A program made the position numbers and the translations under genes. From NCBI GenBank assembly GCA_945874765.1, contig CAMCHQ010000001.1:124001-188000 (forward strand): a DNA stretch of 64,000 bases, in the 5' to 3' direction. Shown here one piece after another: positions 32,852-46,896 of this stretch. Source of the stretch: an uncultured Clostridia bacterium. Its GTDB lineage: Bacteria; Bacillota; Clostridia; Oscillospirales; Acutalibacteraceae. Each line of letters starts with the position of its first letter. Within the stretch, counting starts at the first letter, position 1. The notes under the pieces were generated by a model, which saw only the letters and a program-made list of their open reading frames with translations, was not told where the DNA came from and did no database searches.

Positions 32852-35580
32852 TTATAACGATTGATTTTTTAGAGCTTCACCGAGCGGTGTTTTTCTTATT
32901 TTAAACAGCATTGCAATTGCAACAACGGCATAACTTACAACACCCAAAACAAACATTGACACGTAACAGCTTGATGAAATAATATACGGCACGTATCCCG
33001 TCATTTGCGTATAAAGATAAGATTTAAAGCACCACCTAAGCGCTACGGATATAAGCGGAATACTTATCAAAAGCGACAGCACAACAACTATTGACGTCAT
33101 AATTATATAAAGCCGTCCTATTTCAATATCGGAAAATCCGAGTATCTTAGTCATTGAAATTGATTTGGTGTTCTTTTCAATAATCTGCTTTGTAAGTATA
33201 TACATAATAAGCAAGAATATTACGATTCCGAGCATTTTATAAACCTTTACAAAATCACTCATAGAAACCTGCATTTGAGTGACAACCTTATTGAAGTCTT
33301 TTTCGCTTATAACCGCCGCAACATCATCGTCGCTTAAATCGTTTAATTTTTCATTACTGAAATATCCCGTGAAATAGTCGGTATCTTCATTAAACATTTT
33401 AAGATAATCTCCCCTATTCATAAACACGGTTATTGCGGCGTCGTAATTATATTCTCCCGCAACCTTAAACGAATATGTTTTATCAGTATATTTTTCTTTA
33501 AGTTTAACCTCGTCGCCGACTTTTAAGCTGTATTTATTCATCATAGCACTTGATACAACTGCCTCACCGGTAGGAATTTGAGTTTTTATATATTTACTGT
33601 TATCCACTACTCCGTAAATTGAAACGTCATCACTCATAAATTTCTTATCCGTTGTTTCAAGAGTAGTAAGACAGAACTTTTCTGCATTTTGGTTATCGGT
33701 TTCTTTTTCATTAATCATTACATATTGATATTTTGAAATCATACTTTCCTTAACCAAATTTGAATAGTCGTCAAGTAAAGGGGCAAACATTGAGCCGATA
33801 ACAACAAGTATGCCTGCAAGGAAAATACCCAAGAACATAGTCAAATAAGACGGAATGTTTTGAAACAGTACACGCAATCTGAATTTGGAGAAAAAGTGCA
33901 TTTTTTTAGGAAGTTTAATAACTTTTTTCTGACCTTTTTGTTTTAACTCTCCACGAATAAAATTAAGCGGGCTGATTTTGAGTTTTTTCGCAAGGACAAA
34001 GGTGTTTACCAAAAGCATTATAATAATAGGAATAATCGTAGTTTCCCAAAATGCATTCATATTCCAAAGCGTTTTATAGGCAGTAAGTGAATAATTAGAA
34101 TAATAAACGTCTACAAACACCTTTTGAAATACGGTATAGCCGAGAATATTACCTATCAATGCTCCTAAAGTTGTTACAACCATCGGCATAAATAAATAGT
34201 GCCTGATAAGTTCACCTTTTGAGTATCCCATTGCTCTGAGAGTACCTATAACATTAGCCTCTTTTGTGATTGTATTTGAGGTTGTGACAGCAAACAGGAA
34301 TGCAATTACAATCATAATTATATATGTCATAAGCTGCATAGTAGCTTTATCCGAGCCTGAATCCTCTATTGTATACGTTATTGATTTATTTGTGTATTTG
34401 GCGCTGTAATCTTTAACAGTGATAATATTACTGTCATCAAACTTGAAATTATTTACTGTCTTTTTTAATTTTGACAAGTCGCTGTAAATTTTAGTGCAAT
34501 TATAAAGTTTAGCGTCACTTACGGCGTCGACGATTTTATAAACAGTATCAAACATATCGTCAAACTCGTTTAAATCATCATTTGACTTATAATTGTCAAG
34601 GCTGATTTTCGGCGCTTTATCGATATTATCTAAATCCCAATCATTTTCCTTTTTCTCAGCGTCTTCAAGGGCACTTTTAAGATTATCATACTGCTTTTGA
34701 GTAATTCCGAGCTCCTTTGCAAGCTTTTTATCATCGTTTAAGCCCGCATTTCTTATTGCGTCAAAATATTTTGACTGAAGAACGTTTTGAGCGTCGGTAA
34801 ATTCGTTTTTTAGCCTTTTAATATAAACTCTTGCGCTGTCGTACAAATCGTCCACCTGCGACTGAACAAGCGGTTCGTCATACTTTTTCAAAATACTTTC
34901 AAGCGAATTCGTCAATTTTTCACTTCTTGAATTTTCCTCGTTTTCATTTTTAGGTTTATTATTGAAACCCACGCATAATTGACGGTTTCGTGTGATTTTA
35001 AAACGGTGTTATATCCCTCGCCGCTCATAACGGCAACGCCGAAACCCACAGCGTCAAACATCATATCGGAATTTTTTTCAAACAAAGCGCTGTAGTCGGA
35101 AAGAGCAACCAAACCGCAGACTTTATAATTTTTATTTCTTATCTTGATTTTATCGCCGATACCGATTTTATTATTTTCGGCAAACATACGGTCAAGAGCT
35201 ATTTCTTCACGGCTTTTAGGAAGCTCACCGCTCATAAGGCATTGCTTATCTACTTTACTCCTAAGCTTATAAATACGAAGTTTTCTGTTAGTTTTAAGTA
35301 TATTTTCTTCCTTGTAATCAAGCTCATACAGCTTTAAATCGTTGTCCTTTTCAATTTGTTTTAATATTTCGTTACTCGGCTTAATATTAAATGAAAAATG
35401 TCCGTCTTCAATATTATATTTTTCAAAGTTTTCGTCACTCATTGCCATTACGGAATTATCGGCAACAAAGAAACCTGAAACAGCGCCTATAAAAAATACA
35501 AGGAAAAGAAATATAGCCGCATACTTACCGAAATCGGATTTTAAATCACGCTTAAATCTTTTATTTAAAGGATTGTGCAT
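32852..35580 (-). pseudogene. FtsX-type ABC permease split by a one-base frameshift
   Basis: The N-terminal piece (35580 to about 34968) starts with MHNPLNKRFKRDLKSDFGKY, one membrane helix and a MacB-like periplasmic region. The rest (to 32852) holds the coiled-coil part, seven membrane helices and two FtsX domains, the second ending in KIRKTPLGEALKNQSL. The frames join if one T is added to the T3 run at 34967-34965: NYAWV would continue directly into FNNKPKNENEEN. The restored gene has 2730 bases, an exact multiple of three, coding for 909 residues. It forms a transporter with the ATPase gene 12 bases upstream. Could also be an assembly error. Confidence 0.85.
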
Positions 35581-38612: not shown

Positions 38613-38645
38613 CGGGACTGAATAAAATTCAGCCCCGCTTTTTTA
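38613..38645. terminator. Bidirectional terminator
   Basis: CGGG-CTGAAT pairs with ATTCAG-CCCG, T run on the right and A run on the left, between the MetE-like gene and the convergent ABC exporter. Confidence 0.85.
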
Positions 38646-40319
38646 TGCTATTGTCCAGTTTTGTGATGCTGTTTGTAAATCAACCATATGCTTGAAAATT
38701 CCGTTATTTTTCATAAGTTCTTCGGGTGCTCCGCTTTCTGCGATTGAGCCGTTTGAGAGAACGACAATTTTATCCGCACTTTCAACCGTTCTCATTCTGT
38801 GAGCAATTACAAGAACCGTTTTATCCTTAATAAGTCTTGACAGTGCTGTTTGGATAAGCGTTTCATTTTCAACATCAAGAGAAGCAGTTGCTTCGTCAAG
38901 CAAAATGATAGGTGCGTTTTTCAAGAAAGCTCTTGCGATAGAAATACGCTGTCTTTCACCGCCTGAAAGATTACAGCCGTTCTCGCCTATTTCGGTATTA
39001 TAACAGTTAGGAAGTTTATCGGCAAACTCATCACAATTTGCAAGTTTTGCGGCAGCAAGCACTTATTCATCACTTGCATCTTTTTTGCCGAGACGTATAT
39101 TTTCAAGAATCGAGGTGTTAAAAAGAGTAACATCCTGAAAAACAATTGAATAAAGACTTAAAAGCGTTTCAGGTTCAATTTTGGAAATATCCATACCGCC
39201 GACTGTGATTTTACCGCTCGACGTATCCCAAAATCTTGCCGCAAGTCTTGAAACGGTAGTTTTTCCTCCGCCCGACGGACCCACAAGTGCCGTTATCTCA
39301 CCCTGCTTTGCCGTAAATGATACATTAGTCAAAACCTTAGCGTCATCATTATAAGAAAAACTTACATTGTCAAAATTTATATCATAGCCGTTATTTGAAA
39401 GATTTGTGTCGCCCGACTGTATATCGTGGTCAAGAATTTCATTCATTCTTGCAACATTCGTTTTAGTGCTGATTATAGCCGCAAGATTTTGAAGTGAGGT
39501 TTGCATTGGGTCATAAAGACGTGATACAAGCAGGAGAAATACAAAAAACGTCAGTACATCGACTTCGCCTTTTACAAGAAGAAGCGAACCTACGAGTGCG
39601 GTTGTGGCAATACCAAGTTTAAGAATAATTTGAGCGCTTGCTACAAATACCGCTGTTCCAAACTCACTTTTAAGTGCTCTTGTTTCGACATTATCAATTT
39701 TTTTATCAAGAGTAACTAAATATCTGTCCTCTGCGTTATTTGATTTAAGGTCAGAAACAGTATCGATACATTCCTGAATACCGTTTGCACAAGCTATTTT
39801 TGCTTTCATTGATTTATTTGTCAGTTTTTGCTGAACCTTTGACGAAGAGCCTACAATGATAAATGCAACAGGCAAAACCCACAAGGCCGCAATTGCCATT
39901 TTAACATTAAAGAAAAGAAGTGAAATCGCAATTAAAGCAGTTGAAATCAGAGAACCTGCAAAAGGAGGAATAAAGTGAGAAAAAGCTGTTTCGAGATATG
40001 TGCAATCAGCCATTATTGTGCTTGTTAAATCTGCCAAATCTTTTTTGGAAAAGAACGAAAGAGGGATTTTCCTAAGTTTTTCAGCAAGCGTTATTCTTCT
40101 TGTGCCTGTTTCTACATACGTTGCAAGAAATGTTGAATTATATTGAAAATACGTACACAATGCAACAATAATTAAACAAACAATTGAACCGATAATATAA
40201 AACGGTGCTCTGCCTTTTAATGAATTTGCAAGTAAATCCTTAACAAAAAAGTAAAGGAGCATTACAGGAAGCATAAACGCAATATCCTGAAGCGTACAGG
40301 CGATAACGCCTTTAATCAA
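38643..40319 (-). pseudogene. ABC exporter half B, interrupted by an in-frame ochre codon
   Basis: The restored product has 558 residues: six membrane helices, Walker A GPSGGGKTT, then LGKKDASDE, a TAA at 39065-39063, and in the same frame VLAAAKLANCDEF, signature LSGGERQR and Walker B IILLDEATASLD. A single change (GAA to TAA) explains the break. The ATPase is cut between Q-loop and signature, so the short product cannot hydrolyse ATP; a GTG right after the stop could restart the second piece. The start is TTG at 40319, overlapping the stop of half A as TTGA, with AAGGTG upstream. Readthrough or a sequencing error is also possible. Confidence 0.85.
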
Positions 40320-42040
40320 ATCTTTTGCACCTTGTTTTGACTTGCAAGGTTTTGAGCACTTCCCTGCTCTATAAGCCTGCCGCCTGCAAGAACGTAAATA
40401 CAATCTGCATTTTTGACGGTTGAAAGACGGTGAGCAATCATAATAACTGTTTTATCCTTTGAAAGTTCGTCAAGTGCTTTTTGAATTTTAACCTCGTTGT
40501 CGGGGTCGGCATATGCGGTAGCCTCATCAAGAATTACAATCGGCGCATTTTTCAAAATGGCACGTGCAATTGCAAGACGCTGTGCTTCACCGCCCGAAAG
40601 ATAAACGCCGTTTGAACCGATAACGGTATCGATACCGCTTTCAAATTTGTTGATTATATCAAGGCATTGTGCTTTTTCGAGTGCACACATAACCTCTTCT
40701 GCCGAAGCATTAGGTTTTGCAAGGGCAACGTTATCAAAAATACTTGCGCCGATAAGTTTGCTGTTTTGGAAAACAAACGAAACTGTATTCATAAGTTCTT
40801 TTTTATCAATATTTTTAACATTTACACCGCCGATAAGCACATCGCCCTCATCGGCATCGAAAAATCTTGAAATAAGATTTGCAAGAGTAGTTTTGCCGCC
40901 GCCCGATTCGCCTACAAAAGCGACTGTTTGACCCGCTTTGATTTTAAGTGAAATATTATCAATTGCCTTAGTTTCTCCGTCATAGCTGTAACTTACATTT
41001 TTAAGTTCAATTGATGAATCCTTAGGCTTTTGAACATTGGTCGAAGTTAAAGGTTTGACATTAAGAACACTGTCAATTCTTTTAAATGCGTCTTCAACAA
41101 TCATTTTATTTTCGCTTTGGAACATTACCTTAGTCATAGTAACCGTCAAAATCGGAGTAATAATTATATAGAAAAGAATATTGAGTATAATATCGTTTGT
41201 GACTCCGCCTTTGGTAAAAATAAGACCGCCGAAAATAATAAAGGCAAAAATACCGTTAATAAGCATAGTAAATATTGTCATAGGTACACGAAGATTTTTA
41301 GTATAAGCAATTGCCCATTCGCTGTAGGAATCGATTGACTTTTTAAATCTTCTGAAACTGAACACGCTTTGACCGAACGCTTTTACAACGGGAATACCTC
41401 TGATATATTCAACAGCTTCATTTGACATATCGTCAAGCGCATTTTGATACTCTGTCATTTTTTGCTGAAGCGTTTTGCCGGTCATAAATGCCATCATAAT
41501 AATAAACGAAAGAGCAACAGGGATAAGAGATATCAAACCGAAGCGCCAGTCAAACACAAATAAGAATATCAAAAGACCTATCGGTGTTACGATTGAGCCG
41601 ACCATATCGGGAAGTTGATGAGCAAGATATGTTTCCGTTGCCGCAGACGAATCGTTGACTGTTTTACGAAGTTTACCGCTGCCGAATTTTTCAACTTCAC
41701 CGAGTGGAAGCTTAACGATATGGTGCATCATATCTTTTCTCAAATTTGCCTGAACTCTGAATGCGCTTGTATGAGAACATAAAAGAGCCGCAATATAAAT
41801 AACCATTGACAAAATCGAAAACACAACTGCCATAACACCGTTTTTGACAATACCGGTTGAATTTTGAAAATCAGGCATAACGTCTAAAACTTCTTTTATA
41901 ATCTTCCACAAATAATAAAACGGAACAAGTGCAAGCGCACTGCTGATACCGCTTAATACCCACGAGGCATACGTAAAATACTTATACCCCTTTGCATACC
42001 CCATCAATCTTGACAGGCTTGATTGTTTTTTCTTTTCCAA
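40316..42040 (-). CDS. ABC exporter half A, fused permease and ATPase
   Basis: A 574-residue half-transporter with six membrane helices (residues 20-310), Walker A GESGGGKTT, Q-loop VSFVFQNS, signature LSGGEAQR and Walker B IVILDEATAYADPDNE (Tyr-Ala in place of Ser-Ala). It forms a heterodimeric multidrug-type exporter with half B. The start is TTG at 42040, 8 bases after AGGAGG. An operator-like palindrome lies 30 bases upstream and a TetR gene is next upstream in the same direction, so induction by an exported compound is likely. Confidence 0.92.
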   Translation of the reverse strand: MEKKKQSSLSRLMGYAKGYKYFTYASWVLSGISSALALVPFYYLWKIIKEVLDVMPDFQNSTGIVKNGVMAVVFSILSMVIYIAALLCSHTSAFRVQANLRKDMMHHIVKLPLGEVEKFGSGKLRKTVNDSSAATETYLAHQLPDMVGSIVTPIGLLIFLFVFDWRFGLISLIPVALSFIIMMAFMTGKTLQQKMTEYQNALDDMSNEAVEYIRGIPVVKAFGQSVFSFRRFKKSIDSYSEWAIAYTKNLRVPMTIFTMLINGIFAFIIFGGLIFTKGGVTNDIILNILFYIIITPILTVTMTKVMFQSENKMIVEDAFKRIDSVLNVKPLTSTNVQKPKDSSIELKNVSYSYDGETKAIDNISLKIKAGQTVAFVGESGGGKTTLANLISRFFDADEGDVLIGGVNVKNIDKKELMNTVSFVFQNSKLIGASIFDNVALAKPNASAEEVMCALEKAQCLDIINKFESGIDTVIGSNGVYLSGGEAQRLAIARAILKNAPIVILDEATAYADPDNEVKIQKALDELSKDKTVIMIAHRLSTVKNADCIYVLAGGRLIEQGSAQNLASQNKVQKI

Positions 42041-42069
42041 ATTAATTCCTCCTAAATATATAAAATCAT

Positions 42070-42089
42070 CAGTTAGTAATGACTAACTG
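42070..42089. promoter_or_regulatory. Operator-like palindrome upstream of the ABC exporter
   Basis: CAGTTAGT-AATG-ACTAACTG, a perfect palindrome with 8-base arms, between the TetR gene and exporter half A. It matches the sites at 36318 and 36353. Confidence 0.75.
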
Positions 42090-42097
42090 CAATATAA

Positions 42098-42120
42098 AAA
42101 ATTAAAGGACTTAAAGTCCT
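42098..42120 (-). terminator. Short terminator overlapping the TetR stop codon
   Basis: AGGACTTTAAGTCCT is self-complementary and followed on the minus strand by TTTAATTTTTT. The stem covers the TetR stop codon. It is weak (AT-rich, small loop). Confidence 0.5.
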
Positions 42121-42725
42121 AAAATTTTAGACCAACCTGCGATATAAAAATCCTGAAGCTGAGAAACATATTTCACAGCGTTTTCCTTTTTCATATCGTG
42201 CTTAATCAGTTCAAATATCCCCGTAAACATACCGCTTACAATCATATGGCAAACCGGTTTTTCCATATCGGGAACATTTTTGCCCTGACTTTTCAAAACT
42301 TCAATAAATTCAAGAGTTTGCTCAACTTCGATTTCAACCATATTGTGTACGAAGTTCTCATAGCTTGTGCCCTCACTTTTACAAACAAGAAGCTTAAATT
42401 CGTCAAAATGCTTATAAATGTAATCAACTATTTCATTTAGGCTTGAACGGCTTTCCACACCCATATGCTGCGCCTGAACCTCTTTCGGAAGTTTAACAAA
42501 ATCTTCCTGTGCAAACATAAAAATATTCATTATAGCCTTGGCGTGTTCCTCAACAAGTGCCGCAAAAAGTGCCTCTTTACCAGAAAAATAACCGTAAAAC
42601 GCACCGGTTGTAACACCTGCGATTTTAACGATATTACGAAGTGATGCGGATTTAAAGCCCTTATCCAAAAATTCAGCCTTTCCGGCAGTCAATATTTTTT
42701 CCAATGTAGATTGTTCTTCGTTCAA
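42111..42725 (-). CDS. TetR family transcriptional regulator
   Basis: A 204-residue repressor with the TetR helix-turn-helix (ILTAGKAEFLDKGFKSASLRN and VKIAGVTTGAFYGYFSGKEAL, residues 11-55) and a helical ligand-binding C-terminus. It is next to the ABC exporter whose operator it probably binds. Its own promoter contains two palindromes, which points to autoregulation. The start is TTG at 42725, 7 bases after GAGGT. Confidence 0.93.
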   Translation of the reverse strand: MNEEQSTLEKILTAGKAEFLDKGFKSASLRNIVKIAGVTTGAFYGYFSGKEALFAALVEEHAKAIMNIFMFAQEDFVKLPKEVQAQHMGVESRSSLNEIVDYIYKHFDEFKLLVCKSEGTSYENFVHNMVEIEVEQTLEFIEVLKSQGKNVPDMEKPVCHMIVSGMFTGIFELIKHDMKKENAVKYVSQLQDFYIAGWSKILGL

Positions 42726-42747
42726 TGTACTAACCTCATTATCCGTA

Positions 42748-42758
42748 TAACAGTGTTA
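42748..42758. promoter_or_regulatory. Palindrome TAACA-G-TGTTA downstream of the TetR promoter
   Basis: Perfect 11-base palindrome lying just after the expected transcription start of the TetR gene, 25 bases (centre to centre) from the next one. Confidence 0.6.
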
Positions 42759-42768
42759 CATTGTGTTT

Positions 42769-42797
42769 AGTATAACACTGTTATATTTTTCTGTCAA
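42769..42797 (-). promoter_or_regulatory. TetR promoter with embedded operator
   Basis: On the minus strand TTGACA (42797-42792), 17 bases, TATACT (42774-42769). The palindrome TATAACA-C-TGTTATA (42771-42785) covers the -10 box and most of the spacer, an ideal site for self-repression. Confidence 0.75.
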
Positions 42798-42822
42798 CCG
42801 TTTTAAATATTGTTCACAAACG

Positions 42823-42837
42823 GTTAGACTGTCTAAC
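42823..42837. promoter_or_regulatory. Palindrome GTTAGAC-T-GTCTAAC
   Basis: Perfect 15-base palindrome between the TetR promoter and the FezA-like gene. It shares the GTTAG half-site with the operators at 36318 and 42070 but has a shorter centre. Confidence 0.55.
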
Positions 42838-42884
42838 TAAAATGGCATATTTTGTTAATTTTCGTCATATTGACTTCAGATTTA

Positions 42885-42912
42885 TTGACAGCAAAGAATG
42901 ATTTGATATAAT
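42885..42912 (+). promoter_or_regulatory. Promoter of the FezA-like gene
   Basis: TTGACA (42885-42890), 16 bases, TATAAT (42907-42912). No clear Fur box was recognised near it. Confidence 0.75.
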
Positions 42913-42957
42913 TAAACTGTAAAAATTAATAGACATTTTGAAAGGAGTTTTTATATT

Positions 42958-43221
42958 ATGTTTAGTGAATTAGCAGCATTTGCAGGCGGAGTATTATTCG
43001 GCACAGCAGGCGTTAAGGCTTTAGGAAGTAAAGAGGCAAAGAAAGCCTATGCTCACACCGCAGCATTAGGACTTAGAATTAAAGACTCTGTTATGGAAAC
43101 CGTAACCTGTGTTAAGGAAAACGCAAACGATATTTTGGCTGAAGCTAAAGAAATTAATGAAAAAAGAGCAGCCGAGGCAGAGCAGGAAATTATAGAAGAT
43201 ACCGCTTGCGCAAAAGCATAA
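42958..43221 (+). CDS. Small membrane-anchored alanine-rich protein, FezA-like (DUF6110)
   Basis: An 87-residue protein with a glycine-rich hydrophobic N-terminus (FAGGVLFGTAGVKAL, residues 8-22), the segment GSKEAKKAYAHTAALG and an acidic, Ala/Glu-rich helical tail likely to form a coiled coil. It is directly upstream of a P1B-type ATPase. The family fits DUF6110, and the pairing resembles FezA with FezB of ferrosome clusters in Clostridioides difficile and other anaerobes, where the two build membrane-bound iron stores. The family call is from memory of these proteins and should be tested. Ribosome binding site AAAGGAG. Confidence 0.7.
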   Translation: MFSELAAFAGGVLFGTAGVKALGSKEAKKAYAHTAALGLRIKDSVMETVTCVKENANDILAEAKEINEKRAAEAEQEIIEDTACAKA

Positions 43222-43233
43222 TAACAAACAAAC

Positions 43234-43265
43234 GTGAGGCTGTCATTTTGACGGCCTCATATATT
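43234..43265 (+). terminator. Terminator or attenuator between the FezA-like and ATPase genes
   Basis: TGAGGC-GTCA pairs with TGAC-GCCTCA, followed by TATATTTTTAA. It would make the small protein more abundant than the ATPase, as expected for a structural and a catalytic subunit. Confidence 0.75.
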
Positions 43266-43333
43266 TTTAATTGGAAGATAAAAGCAGGTAATAAATATGA
43301 AATGCAAAAATATTACACGAAACAAAAGGCAGA

Positions 43334-45376
43334 ATGAGAATACATTTTTTCCAAAACACAATGAGCATCAGTCAAGCCGATATTGCCGACGCTTATTTCA
43401 AATCAATTAAAGGCATTGATGATGTTAAGGTATATGAGAGAACGAGCTACTTAATTATATATTATTCGTTTGAAAGAGCCAAGCTTATAAGCATATTATC
43501 AAAATTCAGCTTTGAAAACGATGATGTAAAAAGCATTGAAGTTGTCGGTACGACAAGGCAAATTCAGCGTGAATACGAAGAAAAACTTATTATGACCGTA
43601 TTTATGCGTTACGTAAGAAAACTGTTTTTCCCTGCCCCTTTAAGACTTGTAATCTCTTATATCAAAGCAGTCAAATACATATTTAAAGCGCTCAAATCAC
43701 TTATTAAGTTTAAACTTGACGTATCCGTTCTTGACGCCGTAGCAATTACGGTTTCACTTATCAGGGGTGATTATGAAACGGCTTCAAGCGTTATGTTCCT
43801 TCTTAAAATCGGCGAAATCCTTGAGGAGTGGACACATAAAAAGTCGGTAAGCGACCTTGCAAATACTATGTCACTCGGCGTTGAAAAGGTATGGCTCAGA
43901 GCAAAAGACGGCAGTGAAGTTCTTGTGCCTACAAGTGAGGTAAAAGTCGGTGATGAAATCGTTTTGAGAACAAGCAATATGATTGCGCTTGACGGCGAAA
44001 TAGTAAAAGGCGGCGCAACGGTTAATCAATCGGCAATTACCGGTGAAAGCGTTGCTGTAAACAAAACCGTCGGTTCTCAGGTATATGCAGGAACAGTAGT
44101 TGAAAGCGGCGAGTGCATTGTCAAAGTCACTCAAATCAACGGTCAGGGACGGTATGACAGAATAGTCAAAATGATTGAGGAGTCGGAAAAGCTGAAATCT
44201 TCTCTTGAAAGCAAAGCGGCAAACCTTGCCGACAGATTGGTACCTTTTAGCCTGTTTGGCACGATATTTACATATTTATTTACACGAAATGTAACTAAAG
44301 CATTATCAATTTTAATGGTTGACTATTCCTGCGCATTAAAACTTACTATGCCTGTTGCCGTTTTATCTGCTATAAACGAATGCAGTAATTATAATATTAC
44401 GGTAAAGGGCGGAAAATATCTTGAAGCGGTATCAAAAGCAAACGTTATTGTATTTGACAAAACAGGTACGCTTACCAATGCACAGCCTAAAGTTGCTAAA
44501 ATTGTTACCTTTGCAAACAGAGACAAAACCGAAATGCTGCGACTTGCAGCCTGCCTTGAAGAGCATTTCCCTCATTCGGTTGCAAATGCAGTTGTAAACG
44601 AAGCAAAATCAAGAGGACTTAATCACGAGGAACGTCACTCAAAGGTTGAATATATTGTAGCCCACGGAATTTCAAGTCTTGTAGATAACGAAAAAGTGGT
44701 AATAGGAAGTTATCATTTTGTTTTTGAAGATGAAAAATGCGTAATTCCAAGCGGTGAGAAAGAAAAATTCGACGATATAGAAAACGAATATTCTCATCTT
44801 TATATGGCAATTAACAGAGAACTTGCGGCTGTTATCTGCATTGAAGACCCTATCAAAGACAATGTAAAGCAAACGCTTGAAAAACTTCACAATAACGGAA
44901 TTGATAAAATTGTTATGATGACCGGTGACAGCGAAAGAACGGCTAAGGCTGTGGCGCAAAAACTCGGTATTGACGAATATTATGCAGAAGTTATGCCGGA
45001 TGACAAAGCAAAATTCATTAAAAATATGCATAAGCTCGGCAACAAGGTTATTATGGTTGGCGACGGAATTAACGACTCCCCTGCTCTTTCTGAAGCCGAC
45101 GCAGGCATTGCAATAAGCACAGGTGCGGCAATAGCAAGAGAAATAGCAGACATTACAATCTCAAGCGACGACCTTGAAACACTCGTTACACTTAAAGAAA
45201 TAAGCAATCTTTTAATGAATCGTATTTCGGATAATTACAGGTTGATAATGTCGTTTAACACTGCGCTTATCGTTTTAGGTGTTATAGGAATTTTACCGCC
45301 GACAACATCGGCATTTATGCACAACACGTCAACACTTCTTTTCACATTAAAAAGTATGACAAAGTTAATTAAGTAA
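43334..45376 (+). CDS. Heavy-metal P1B-type ATPase, FezB-like
   Basis: A 680-residue metal pump. The N-terminus has one or two degenerate HMA-like folds without Cys-x-x-Cys, then basic patches (VRKLFFPAPLR). Core motifs: TGES at 236-239, the metal-site helix with SCA at 332-334 in place of CPC or SPC, DKTGTLT with phosphorylated Asp 375, an HP-type motif altered to HFPHS, and MVGDGINDSPAL. The SCA motif is unlike Cu, Zn or Cd exporters and fits the P1B-6-like group found in ferrosome clusters. Start ATG 43334 follows AAAGG closely (4-base gap). Iron transport is inference from motif and neighbour. Confidence 0.85.
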   Translation: MRIHFFQNTMSISQADIADAYFKSIKGIDDVKVYERTSYLIIYYSFERAKLISILSKFSFENDDVKSIEVVGTTRQIQREYEEKLIMTVFMRYVRKLFFPAPLRLVISYIKAVKYIFKALKSLIKFKLDVSVLDAVAITVSLIRGDYETASSVMFLLKIGEILEEWTHKKSVSDLANTMSLGVEKVWLRAKDGSEVLVPTSEVKVGDEIVLRTSNMIALDGEIVKGGATVNQSAITGESVAVNKTVGSQVYAGTVVESGECIVKVTQINGQGRYDRIVKMIEESEKLKSSLESKAANLADRLVPFSLFGTIFTYLFTRNVTKALSILMVDYSCALKLTMPVAVLSAINECSNYNITVKGGKYLEAVSKANVIVFDKTGTLTNAQPKVAKIVTFANRDKTEMLRLAACLEEHFPHSVANAVVNEAKSRGLNHEERHSKVEYIVAHGISSLVDNEKVVIGSYHFVFEDEKCVIPSGEKEKFDDIENEYSHLYMAINRELAAVICIEDPIKDNVKQTLEKLHNNGIDKIVMMTGDSERTAKAVAQKLGIDEYYAEVMPDDKAKFIKNMHKLGNKVIMVGDGINDSPALSEADAGIAISTGAAIAREIADITISSDDLETLVTLKEISNLLMNRISDNYRLIMSFNTALIVLGVIGILPPTTSAFMHNTSTLLFTLKSMTKLIK

Positions 45377-45394
45377 AATAAATTATTATAGGCA

Positions 45395-45430
45395 CGGCGG
45401 GGCAACAGCAATGTACCCTGCCGTATTTAT
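45395..45430 (+). terminator. Rho-independent terminator
   Basis: CGGCGGGG pairs (with one bulge) with CCCTGCCG, followed by TATTTATTT. It ends the ATPase transcript. Confidence 0.75.
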
Positions 45431-45482
45431 TTACAAATAGTAACACAAAGTTTGTAATTTATCATATTTCATATAAATAATA

Positions 45483-45511
45483 TTTAAAATGAGAAGCTGT
45501 TTTGATATAAT
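45483..45511 (+). promoter_or_regulatory. Promoter of the glycosidase-like gene
   Basis: TTTAAA (45483-45488), 17 bases, TATAAT (45506-45511). Confidence 0.55.
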
Positions 45512-45543
45512 TCGATATATCAAAGAAAAAAGCGGTGCAAAAT

Positions 45544-46896
45544 ATGTATTTGGAAAGCGAAAACAAAACACTTGAAAATGCTTTTAATTGGGCAGTAAAA
45601 AAGACGGCTCAATTCGTAGTAAGCGGAAAGAAAAACGGTGACATCAACAAAGGTGACGGCGGCAAATGGTACGGACCCGACGCAAAGATAATTAACGAAC
45701 CTAATGAAAATTGGGCAAAGCCCCAAAATTACGGCTCAGCCTTTTGGGCAGGATATTATGACAGAAGTGCTTACTATATACGAGACTTTGTTCATCAAGC
45801 TGTCGGCGCAGTAATATTAGGTCTTTATGACGAAGTTTATCAAATGTATCATACATTCGTAAGCTCTGCAAGCGAGAAAACGGGTTGGTACGCTTTATGG
45901 TCATTTAATTTTAACCATACGCCTTATTATATGGATACGCCTAATTTAAACCGCTTTGTAAGAGAAATAACTTCGCAATTTGAACTTGTAGAACTAGGAT
46001 ATAAACTGTATCTTTGGACAGGTGACGAAAGATATATAACAGACAAAAGTATTGCGCTTTTTGCCGACAAAATTATGAGCGATTTTATCGATAATCAAGA
46101 TGGCATTATTTTCCCAGAAAAGAACGGAATACCCGAGGGAAAAGGCGATATATTTGAAGGCTCGGCGACATACAACGAACGTGGGTTTTGGGCAGTAGAA
46201 GCAGCTGACAGTATAGCCGCAATGTATTCGGCAACGGTAAGTTATTCAAAAATATTAAAATTAAGAGGAAATAATGAAGAAGCACAAAAACAGGCAGAAC
46301 GTGCTAAGAAGTTAAAGAAGTATTTTAACGAGGAATGGTCTGTTGTTAACGGCACGGATATGTTTTGTTATGCAATAGATGACAAAAAGCAAAAGCACTG
46401 TAAGTGGACGAAAAAATCGGGTATGCTTTGCGGTGCGGAAACACTTGAATTTATACCGCTGAAAAAGTTGAGCCGAGACGGTGAAAGAAATGAAAAAATG
46501 CTTGATTACATTTACATGATGCAATCAAGCAAAGAAACAATGTCTGACAATATAGAAAGTTTGACCTATCTGCCCGACCTGTATTTTGCGAATAATCAGT
46601 GCGAACGGGCATGGAATTTTATGAAATATATTATTTCTAAAAAAGATTTACCCCACGAGCACAAAAGTCAGGGAACAAACGGTGATTATCCAGAAATATC
46701 GTTTACATTAATTTCGCAAACAGTAGAAGGAATTATGGGAATAAGTGTTGACGAAAATAACGGAAATCTTATAATCAAACCGAATTTACCACGTGAAATC
46801 AACACGATAAAATTACACGATTTCAAATTCAAATCAAAAATATATGATATTGAAATTGACAAAGACGGCGCAAAAATAACAAAAATAACTACATAA
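45544..46896 (+). CDS. Six-hairpin (alpha/alpha)6-barrel glycosidase-like protein
   Basis: A 450-residue intracellular protein without signal peptide. Alternating helices with aromatic, acidic loops (FWAGYYDRSAYYIRDFVHQ near 60-80, FEGSATYNERGFWAVEAAD near 200, THEH-like DLPHEHKSQGTNGDYPEIS near 385) and a short beta-rich end (NLIIKPNLPREINTIKLHDF) give the layout of GH63/GH65/GH78-like hydrolases. No specific family is recognised. Acidic residues in YYIRDF and ATYNERGF are candidate catalytic sites. The ATG at 45544 is preferred over the GTG at 45535. A strong terminator follows. Confidence 0.7.
   Translation: MYLESENKTLENAFNWAVKKTAQFVVSGKKNGDINKGDGGKWYGPDAKIINEPNENWAKPQNYGSAFWAGYYDRSAYYIRDFVHQAVGAVILGLYDEVYQMYHTFVSSASEKTGWYALWSFNFNHTPYYMDTPNLNRFVREITSQFELVELGYKLYLWTGDERYITDKSIALFADKIMSDFIDNQDGIIFPEKNGIPEGKGDIFEGSATYNERGFWAVEAADSIAAMYSATVSYSKILKLRGNNEEAQKQAERAKKLKKYFNEEWSVVNGTDMFCYAIDDKKQKHCKWTKKSGMLCGAETLEFIPLKKLSRDGERNEKMLDYIYMMQSSKETMSDNIESLTYLPDLYFANNQCERAWNFMKYIISKKDLPHEHKSQGTNGDYPEISFTLISQTVEGIMGISVDENNGNLIIKPNLPREINTIKLHDFKFKSKIYDIEIDKDGAKITKITT

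Follow-up and report, generated by a model that had tools for sequence, protein, structure and literature searches.

A candidate FezA-FezB pair of the Clostridioides type in the genome of an uncultured Clostridia bacterium

Introduction

Ferrosomes are a recent class of bacterial organelle for which few hosts have been studied. In Clostridioides difficile, they are reported to require both FezA and FezB, and both proteins are reported to be Fur-repressed (PMC12574912). The fezAB genes of this species are given as CD630_05910-05920 (PMC11651100), and an expression table on iron and Fur labels these two tags 'ATPase' and 'Hypothetical protein' (PMC6311696).

Small proteins of the DUF6110 family have been described separately as relatives of the mycobacterial DUF1490 proteins (PacL) that are typically encoded with P1B6 ATPases and occur mainly in Firmicutes (Boudehen 2022, PMC9374683), so the DUF6110-P1B6 pairing is already in print. 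The same paper gives an HN in TM6 as a P1B6 feature, a 2026 EMBO J paper calls DUF6110 proteins PacL-like (PMC13043812), and in both it is proposed that these proteins help to assemble P1B6 platforms (PMC9374683, PMC13043812). The word ferrosome is absent from both of these papers. The link that would make FezA a DUF6110, PacL-like protein was not found in the literature searched, and primary ferrosome papers outside that search may have it; 'ferrosome' and 'PacL' appeared together there in a single paper, which judging by title and abstract concerns breast cancer.

Results

The window analyzed here is a stretch of 64,000 nucleotides from the genome of an uncultured Clostridia bacterium. A sequence-only reading of this DNA had proposed a ferrosome module made of two genes, encoding proteins of 87 and 680 aa, with a consensus promoter upstream and a partial terminator between them. 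Both ORFs were found on the + strand, the promoter scored a full 12/12, and the terminator corresponded to a 12-pair hairpin followed by a T-run. These and the other features of the locus are as follows.

42111-42725, minus strand (divergent): TetR gene, with its own promoter (TTGACA 42797 to TATACT 42769), adjoining ABC-exporter genes
42823..42837, no strand: perfect 7-1-7 palindrome GTTAGAC-T-GTCTAAC, candidate operator
42885..42912, + strand: sigma-70-type promoter TTGACA-16-TATAAT, 12/12 matches, TG before the second hexamer
42958..43221, + strand: FezA-like small membrane protein, DUF6110 (PacL-like), 87 aa, PF19605 at E 6e-31
43234..43260, + strand: terminator-like hairpin between the genes, 12 pairs, then ATATTTTTAA
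43301..43333, + strand: conserved FezB N-terminal segment NAKILHETKGR in the ATPase frame, no standard start codon
43334..45376, + strand: FezB-like P1B-6 ATPase, 680 aa, SCA in TM4 and HN in TM6, TIGR01525 at 494 bits

The presence of SCA in TM4 is a mark of P1B-6 ATPases. The window ATPase carries this motif at residues 332-334, along with TGES (236-239), DKTGT (375-379) and GDGIND (576-581), all of which had been read correctly from the letters, and it carries the second P1B-6 mark, HN, at residues 663-664 in its last membrane helix (TM6). Its score against TIGR01525 exceeded the cut-off of 346 bits and assigned it to the heavy-metal P1B ATPases. The Cu/Zn-type signature (i.e., CPC in TM4 and an N-terminal CxxC) was absent, with SCA in the place of CPC and no CxxC in the first 110 residues, the latter again in agreement with the earlier claim; CPC was found in three other P1B ATPases of the same genome. 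Amongst the 80 named relatives kept, out of at least 560 loci found to encode a relative in a genome scan, SCA and HN were each present in 80/80 (HN in one case as FHN). The 32 ATPases collected from the class showed SCA in 29 and CCA in three, with HN in 31 and the remaining one being an ORF that extends beyond the usual end.

The position of the ATPase was examined in a tree of 60 rows, comprising 15 of the 80 named loci together with class, plasmid and own-genome rows, in which the midpoint root serves for drawing only and long branches occur among the outgroup rows. The window ATPase was placed, like the C. difficile ATPase, in a DUF6110-linked Bacillota clade of 35 rows (support 100/99); CPC ATPases encoded in the same genome and DUF1490-linked pumps lay outside this clade. 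Membership in a Zn, Cu or Mn clade had been named beforehand as the outcome that would speak against a FezB identity; in this tree the ATPase instead stood apart from those own-genome CPC pumps.

Comparison with C. difficile relied on a genome (G359) that we took as this species on account of 92 CWB2 repeats and of a 16S oligo used for C. difficile, which occurs in it in 10 exact copies and in none of three other genomes. G359 contains a single DUF6110 match and a single close ATPase match, which lie side by side and are ordered as in the window. The two ATPases share 57% identity over 666 aa and the two small proteins 59% over 61 aa, so the kinship to FezA on which the proposal depended was found, in the form of relatedness to the protein preceding the C. 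difficile ATPase. In a second genome of the same genus (G451), DUF6110 lies at 713.9 kb on the minus strand, which by our estimate is presumably about where the tags CD630_05910-05920 are expected. The sole adjacent pair of G359, considered in concert with the fezAB locus tags and gene labels in print, indicated that FezA is very probably the DUF6110 protein. The FezAB-type identity proposed for the window pair was upheld by the match in sequence, gene order and motifs to the DUF6110/P1B-6 pair of G359.

Altogether, these observations support a FezAB-type iron pair in the window. We read it as a FezA-FezB pair of the Clostridioides type, for which an iron role and ferrosome-type storage are proposed, and would give this reading a probability of roughly 0.68.

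The small protein was identified as DUF6110 by profile search, and its predicted structure consists of a membrane-length helix at residues 2-22 and a long helix at 25-85 (mean pLDDT 78). An N-terminal G...G spacing was kept in 76/80 of the named loci retained from at least 560. The DUF1490 (PacL) domain remained below its curated cut-off in this protein (13.5 bits vs 28.4, E 0.077), and a direct comparison of the DUF6110 and DUF1490 profiles, built from 44 and 4 sequences, gave a probability of 60 and an E value of 8e-5, which is in weak agreement with kinship. This profile match, the modelled shape of one membrane helix followed by a long one, and the description of DUF6110 proteins as PacL-like and as proposed P1B6 platform helpers (PMC9374683, PMC13043812) would fit an effluxosome-like iron exporter, in which FezB would be clustered in the plasma membrane by FezA, like CtpC by PacL1, and would expel Fe(II), with no organelle formed. 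However, the window protein has no His among its final 30 residues and thereby lacks the C-terminal His metal-binding motif of the PacL1 tail, and ferrosome formation is reported to depend on C. difficile FezA and FezB, the closest relatives to have been tested (PMC12574912). We consider such an exporter unlikely.

The distribution of the two genes was assessed in the named loci and in 391 Clostridia genomes, the window's own included. A homologue of the small protein was encoded upstream of the ATPase in 80/80 named loci kept (of at least 560). In the Clostridia genomes, DUF6110 was detected in 29 (24 over the curated cut-off) and the ATPase, at E <= 1e-100, also in 29; the two were together in 28/391 (Fisher p 2e-40, uncorrected for kinship), the exceptions being G412 (DUF6110 only) and G430 (ATPase only, at 35% identity). 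The two genes were thus shown nearly always to co-occur in the sampled Clostridia, and about 7% of the sampled genomes carry the C. difficile-type pair, whose two genes are tightly linked. Carriers include named gut and rumen commensals (e.g., Ruminococcus flavefaciens, Coprococcus comes and Oribacterium parvum), which could serve as harmless hosts for studying the pair.

Some of the distribution data count against the FezAB-type reading. DUF6110 is scarce in the window's own family, with 3/60 genomes when its own genome is counted, a search of one other genome from the same genus did not find it, and it also occurs with no ATPase nearby: in G412 (L146), as a second copy in G094 (L150) and as a broken copy in G039 (L009, L010). 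For the G412 gene (L146:6309-6569), neither the 13 kb fetched around it nor the whole genome (at E 1e-100) yielded a P1B-6 ATPase. The second gene of G094 (L150:6150-6422), present in addition to the usual pair of that genome, likewise had no ATPase in its fetched 13 kb. G039 belongs to the window's own family, and no ATPase was seen in the 2.5 kb fetched around its broken DUF6110 gene.

Genomic context was compared across 114 related loci (80 named and 34 from the class), each with a DUF6110 homologue. FeoB was encoded near 20/114 (13/80 named, 7/34 class), compared with 1.1 expected from the FeoB density in the window's genome (3 per 2.27 Mb), with fetched flanks only being counted. Other recurrent neighbours were flavodoxin (20), DUF3793 (19), DtxR-type regulators (10), ZIP-type transporters (9) and a ferric-reductase-like protein (7), one representative of each family being confirmed by Pfam. 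The loci are partly related to one another, so none of these counts, including the 20 FeoB loci, are independent, and this weakens the iron reading to some extent. Also on that side, no FeoB, flavodoxin, DUF3793, DtxR-type, ZIP-type or ferric-reductase-like gene neighbours the window's pair. Elsewhere in its genome there are three strong FeoB matches and one FUR-family gene. Ferritin was considered as an alternative iron store, and the four ferritin-like matches in the genome were weak (best 34 bits) and suggestive at most. At one related locus (L076:221-6900), FeoB, a DtxR-like regulator, DUF6110, a P1B-6 ATPase and DUF3793 follow in a row, a candidate full iron module.

These neighbours also bear on whether the pair could serve another metal (Zn, Mn, Co or Cd), as a pump and its PacL-like partner. 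A fold search with the ATPase model ranked solved Cu, Zn and Cd P1B pumps at the top alike, and thus does not tell the metal. Sequence alone is no guide to the metal either: the ATPases of the window and of C. difficile also scored over the threshold of TIGR01512, a 'cadmium family' model. This, the zinc and copper-type pumps that DUF1490 relatives serve, and the ZIP-type transporters listed above would agree with a pump for a metal other than iron. On the other hand, the ATPase is free of CPC and CxxC, recurrent neighbours are dominated by iron genes, and the C. difficile data link the pair to iron and Fur (PMC12574912, PMC6311696). We regard a pump for another metal as highly improbable; the metal of the window pair is very probably iron.

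Control of the pair was explored at several levels. Promoter-like sites in 42600-45600 numbered 21, against 9.5 in shuffled sequence, and 42885-42912 was the sole 12/12 site. In the 300 bp upstream of the window pair, the best Fur box scored 10/14, which is the chance level and a further point against the FezAB-type reading; across the 114 related genes, five upstream regions had a box of >=12/14 against 1 expected, with the window's not among them. A search for known RNA elements in 42000-46000 returned none at E up to 1.

The palindrome at 42823-42837 was the only site for its pattern in the window at <=3 mismatches, and a perfect one, with 1.88 expected at that looseness. At <=2 mismatches it was the sole site genome-wide (a reversed-pattern control gave 3 sites per strand), and no regulon was found for it in the genome. 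A DtxR-type operator was rejected, as the site looks like one but is unique in the genome and its core is not clearly enriched: TTAG-N5-CTAA preceded 3 of the 114 related genes exactly, the window's included, against 0.9 expected, and 8 with one mismatch against 19 expected. In G412, GTTAGAGCATCTAAC, which resembles the palindrome, lies 42 bases upstream of the DUF6110 gene of L146.

Control of the pair by the TetR protein was also set aside, since the TetR gene has its own promoter, adjoins ABC-exporter genes and was taken as a separate unit. By eye, two ATAACA.TGTTAT-like inverted repeats at 42740-42800 overlap the promoter of this gene, and they are likely an autoregulatory operator of the TetR-ABC exporter unit. 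The sequence-only reading had described a minimal two-gene set controlled by something other than an adjacent XRE regulator, FezX. The two-gene part stood, as this is the usual arrangement in the relatives seen. The contrast with an adjacent FezX did not, because the C. difficile (G359) pair likewise showed no neighbouring XRE gene: the 1.4 kb before its small gene held only ORFs of <=93 aa, and the nearest regulator-like ORF matched TetR C-terminal families weakly (E 0.03).

The hairpin between the genes directly precedes ATATTTTT. A stretch of 69 nt containing it folded at -21 kcal/mol (z -4.7), and 0/200 shuffles were equally good. Amongst the related pairs, 18/113 had a terminator-like site between the genes and 54/113 a gap of <=20 bp, so that inter-gene terminator control is not general, which also counts against the favoured reading.

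The start of the ATPase gene is anomalous. An arginine-rich N-terminal motif is a family mark of FezB; the relatives' N-terminus reads M[KR]C.ILHES.GR.R, with a strict GRxR in 72/80 named relatives kept (of at least 560), a count in which two loci were badly registered by the alignment. In the ATPase frame, the window codes NAKILHETKGRMRIHFF (NAKILHETKGR, then MRIHFF) just upstream of the ATG at 43334, so its GRMR is encoded in frame but ahead of the first in-frame standard start codon. No ATG, GTG or TTG lies in frame between the in-frame stop and 43334 (window 43283-43340), and an ATG that follows an AGG, at 43297, belongs to another reading frame. The segment conserved in relatives thus precedes the ATG at 43334 in that codon's own frame, and this ATG is unlikely to be the true start of the ATPase.

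Two other genes of the window seem to be interrupted by frame breaks. An ABC exporter gene appears divided between 39063-40403 and a remainder at 38643-39062, and an FtsX-like permease gene is perhaps divided between 32852-34972 and 34912-35580. On these grounds, assembly errors or local decay are tentatively favoured over a special mechanism as the cause of the start anomaly. Taken further, the missing start, which is also a point against a working FezAB-type pair, could mean that the locus is decaying and the pair no longer functional in this host; the same-genus genome that lacks DUF6110 and the broken ABC exporter 3 kb away would be in line with this. Yet 680 codons remain open and the family's invariant residues are conserved in them, the promoter is perfect, and assembly errors could account for several frame breaks within one contig. 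A decayed pair therefore appears improbable to us.

Discussion

For the FezA-FezB reading, a mechanism can be outlined. FezA (DUF6110) would be seated in the membrane by its glycine-rich helix and may oligomerise, and its long cytoplasmic helix would gather and steady the pump. FezB would use ATP to move Fe(II) out of the cytoplasm and into a membrane-enclosed compartment for iron storage, as reported for C. difficile ferrosomes; Cys333 of SCA in TM4 and the HN of TM6 may form part of its transport site. In the window's genome, the hairpin between the genes may hold FezA in excess over FezB.

The identification of FezA as a DUF6110, PacL-like protein would provide a testable link from iron organelles to metal-efflux platforms (i.e., mycobacterial effluxosomes). 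A broader and more tentative idea, which we hold with some doubt, is that FezA and the PacL scaffolds belong together in a single superfamily, whose glycine-rich membrane proteins cluster P1B pumps. Ferrosomes, in which iron is stored inside, and mycobacterial effluxosomes, from which metal is pushed out, might then be two outcomes of one old way of gathering pumps, with many gut Clostridia possibly having the ferrosome version.

The locus compares to known systems as follows. The six-gene fez cluster of Rhodopseudomonas palustris (RPA2333-2338) represents the proteobacterial type, which shares with the window an ATPase with SCA and HN, but has more genes (HMA2, a cation transporter and hypothetical proteins), and its small protein is of the YtxH type, not DUF6110. 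Multi-gene clusters in which a YtxH-annotated small protein precedes an SCA/HN ATPase were also observed on plasmids of Arcobacter (L135:1997-5752, which includes a DUF2202 gene) and Azospirillum (L136:1670-5656), and fez-like clusters may travel on plasmids. The Azospirillum ATPase is 36.8% identical to that of the window; from its gene number, we infer that this cluster is of the palustris type.

The PacL1-CtpC and other DUF1490-P1B pairs of Actinobacteria resemble the window pair in their layout: directly ahead of the gene for a P1B ATPase that has HN in TM6, each codes for a small protein made up of one membrane helix and a long helical tail. DUF1490 also shows the weak profile similarity to DUF6110 described above. 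The window pair differs from them in the DUF6110 family of its small protein, the tail with no His motif, SCA in the place of CPC and another place in the tree. With respect to the DUF6110-P1B6 pairs of Firmicutes, as described in PMC9374683, it is a member with no notable difference.

The closest counterpart is the C. difficile FezA-FezB pair. There, the small protein is longer (a 138-aa ORF, compared with 87 aa), the ATPase ORF has KHEIRGRIRF in frame with its start, whereas the window's segment is not preceded by such a start, and Fur repression is reported (PMC12574912), in contrast to the window, where no Fur box was found. The two pairs agree in gene order, the DUF6110 partner, SCA and HN, the 57% identity of their ATPases and the lack of any further fez-like gene seen alongside.
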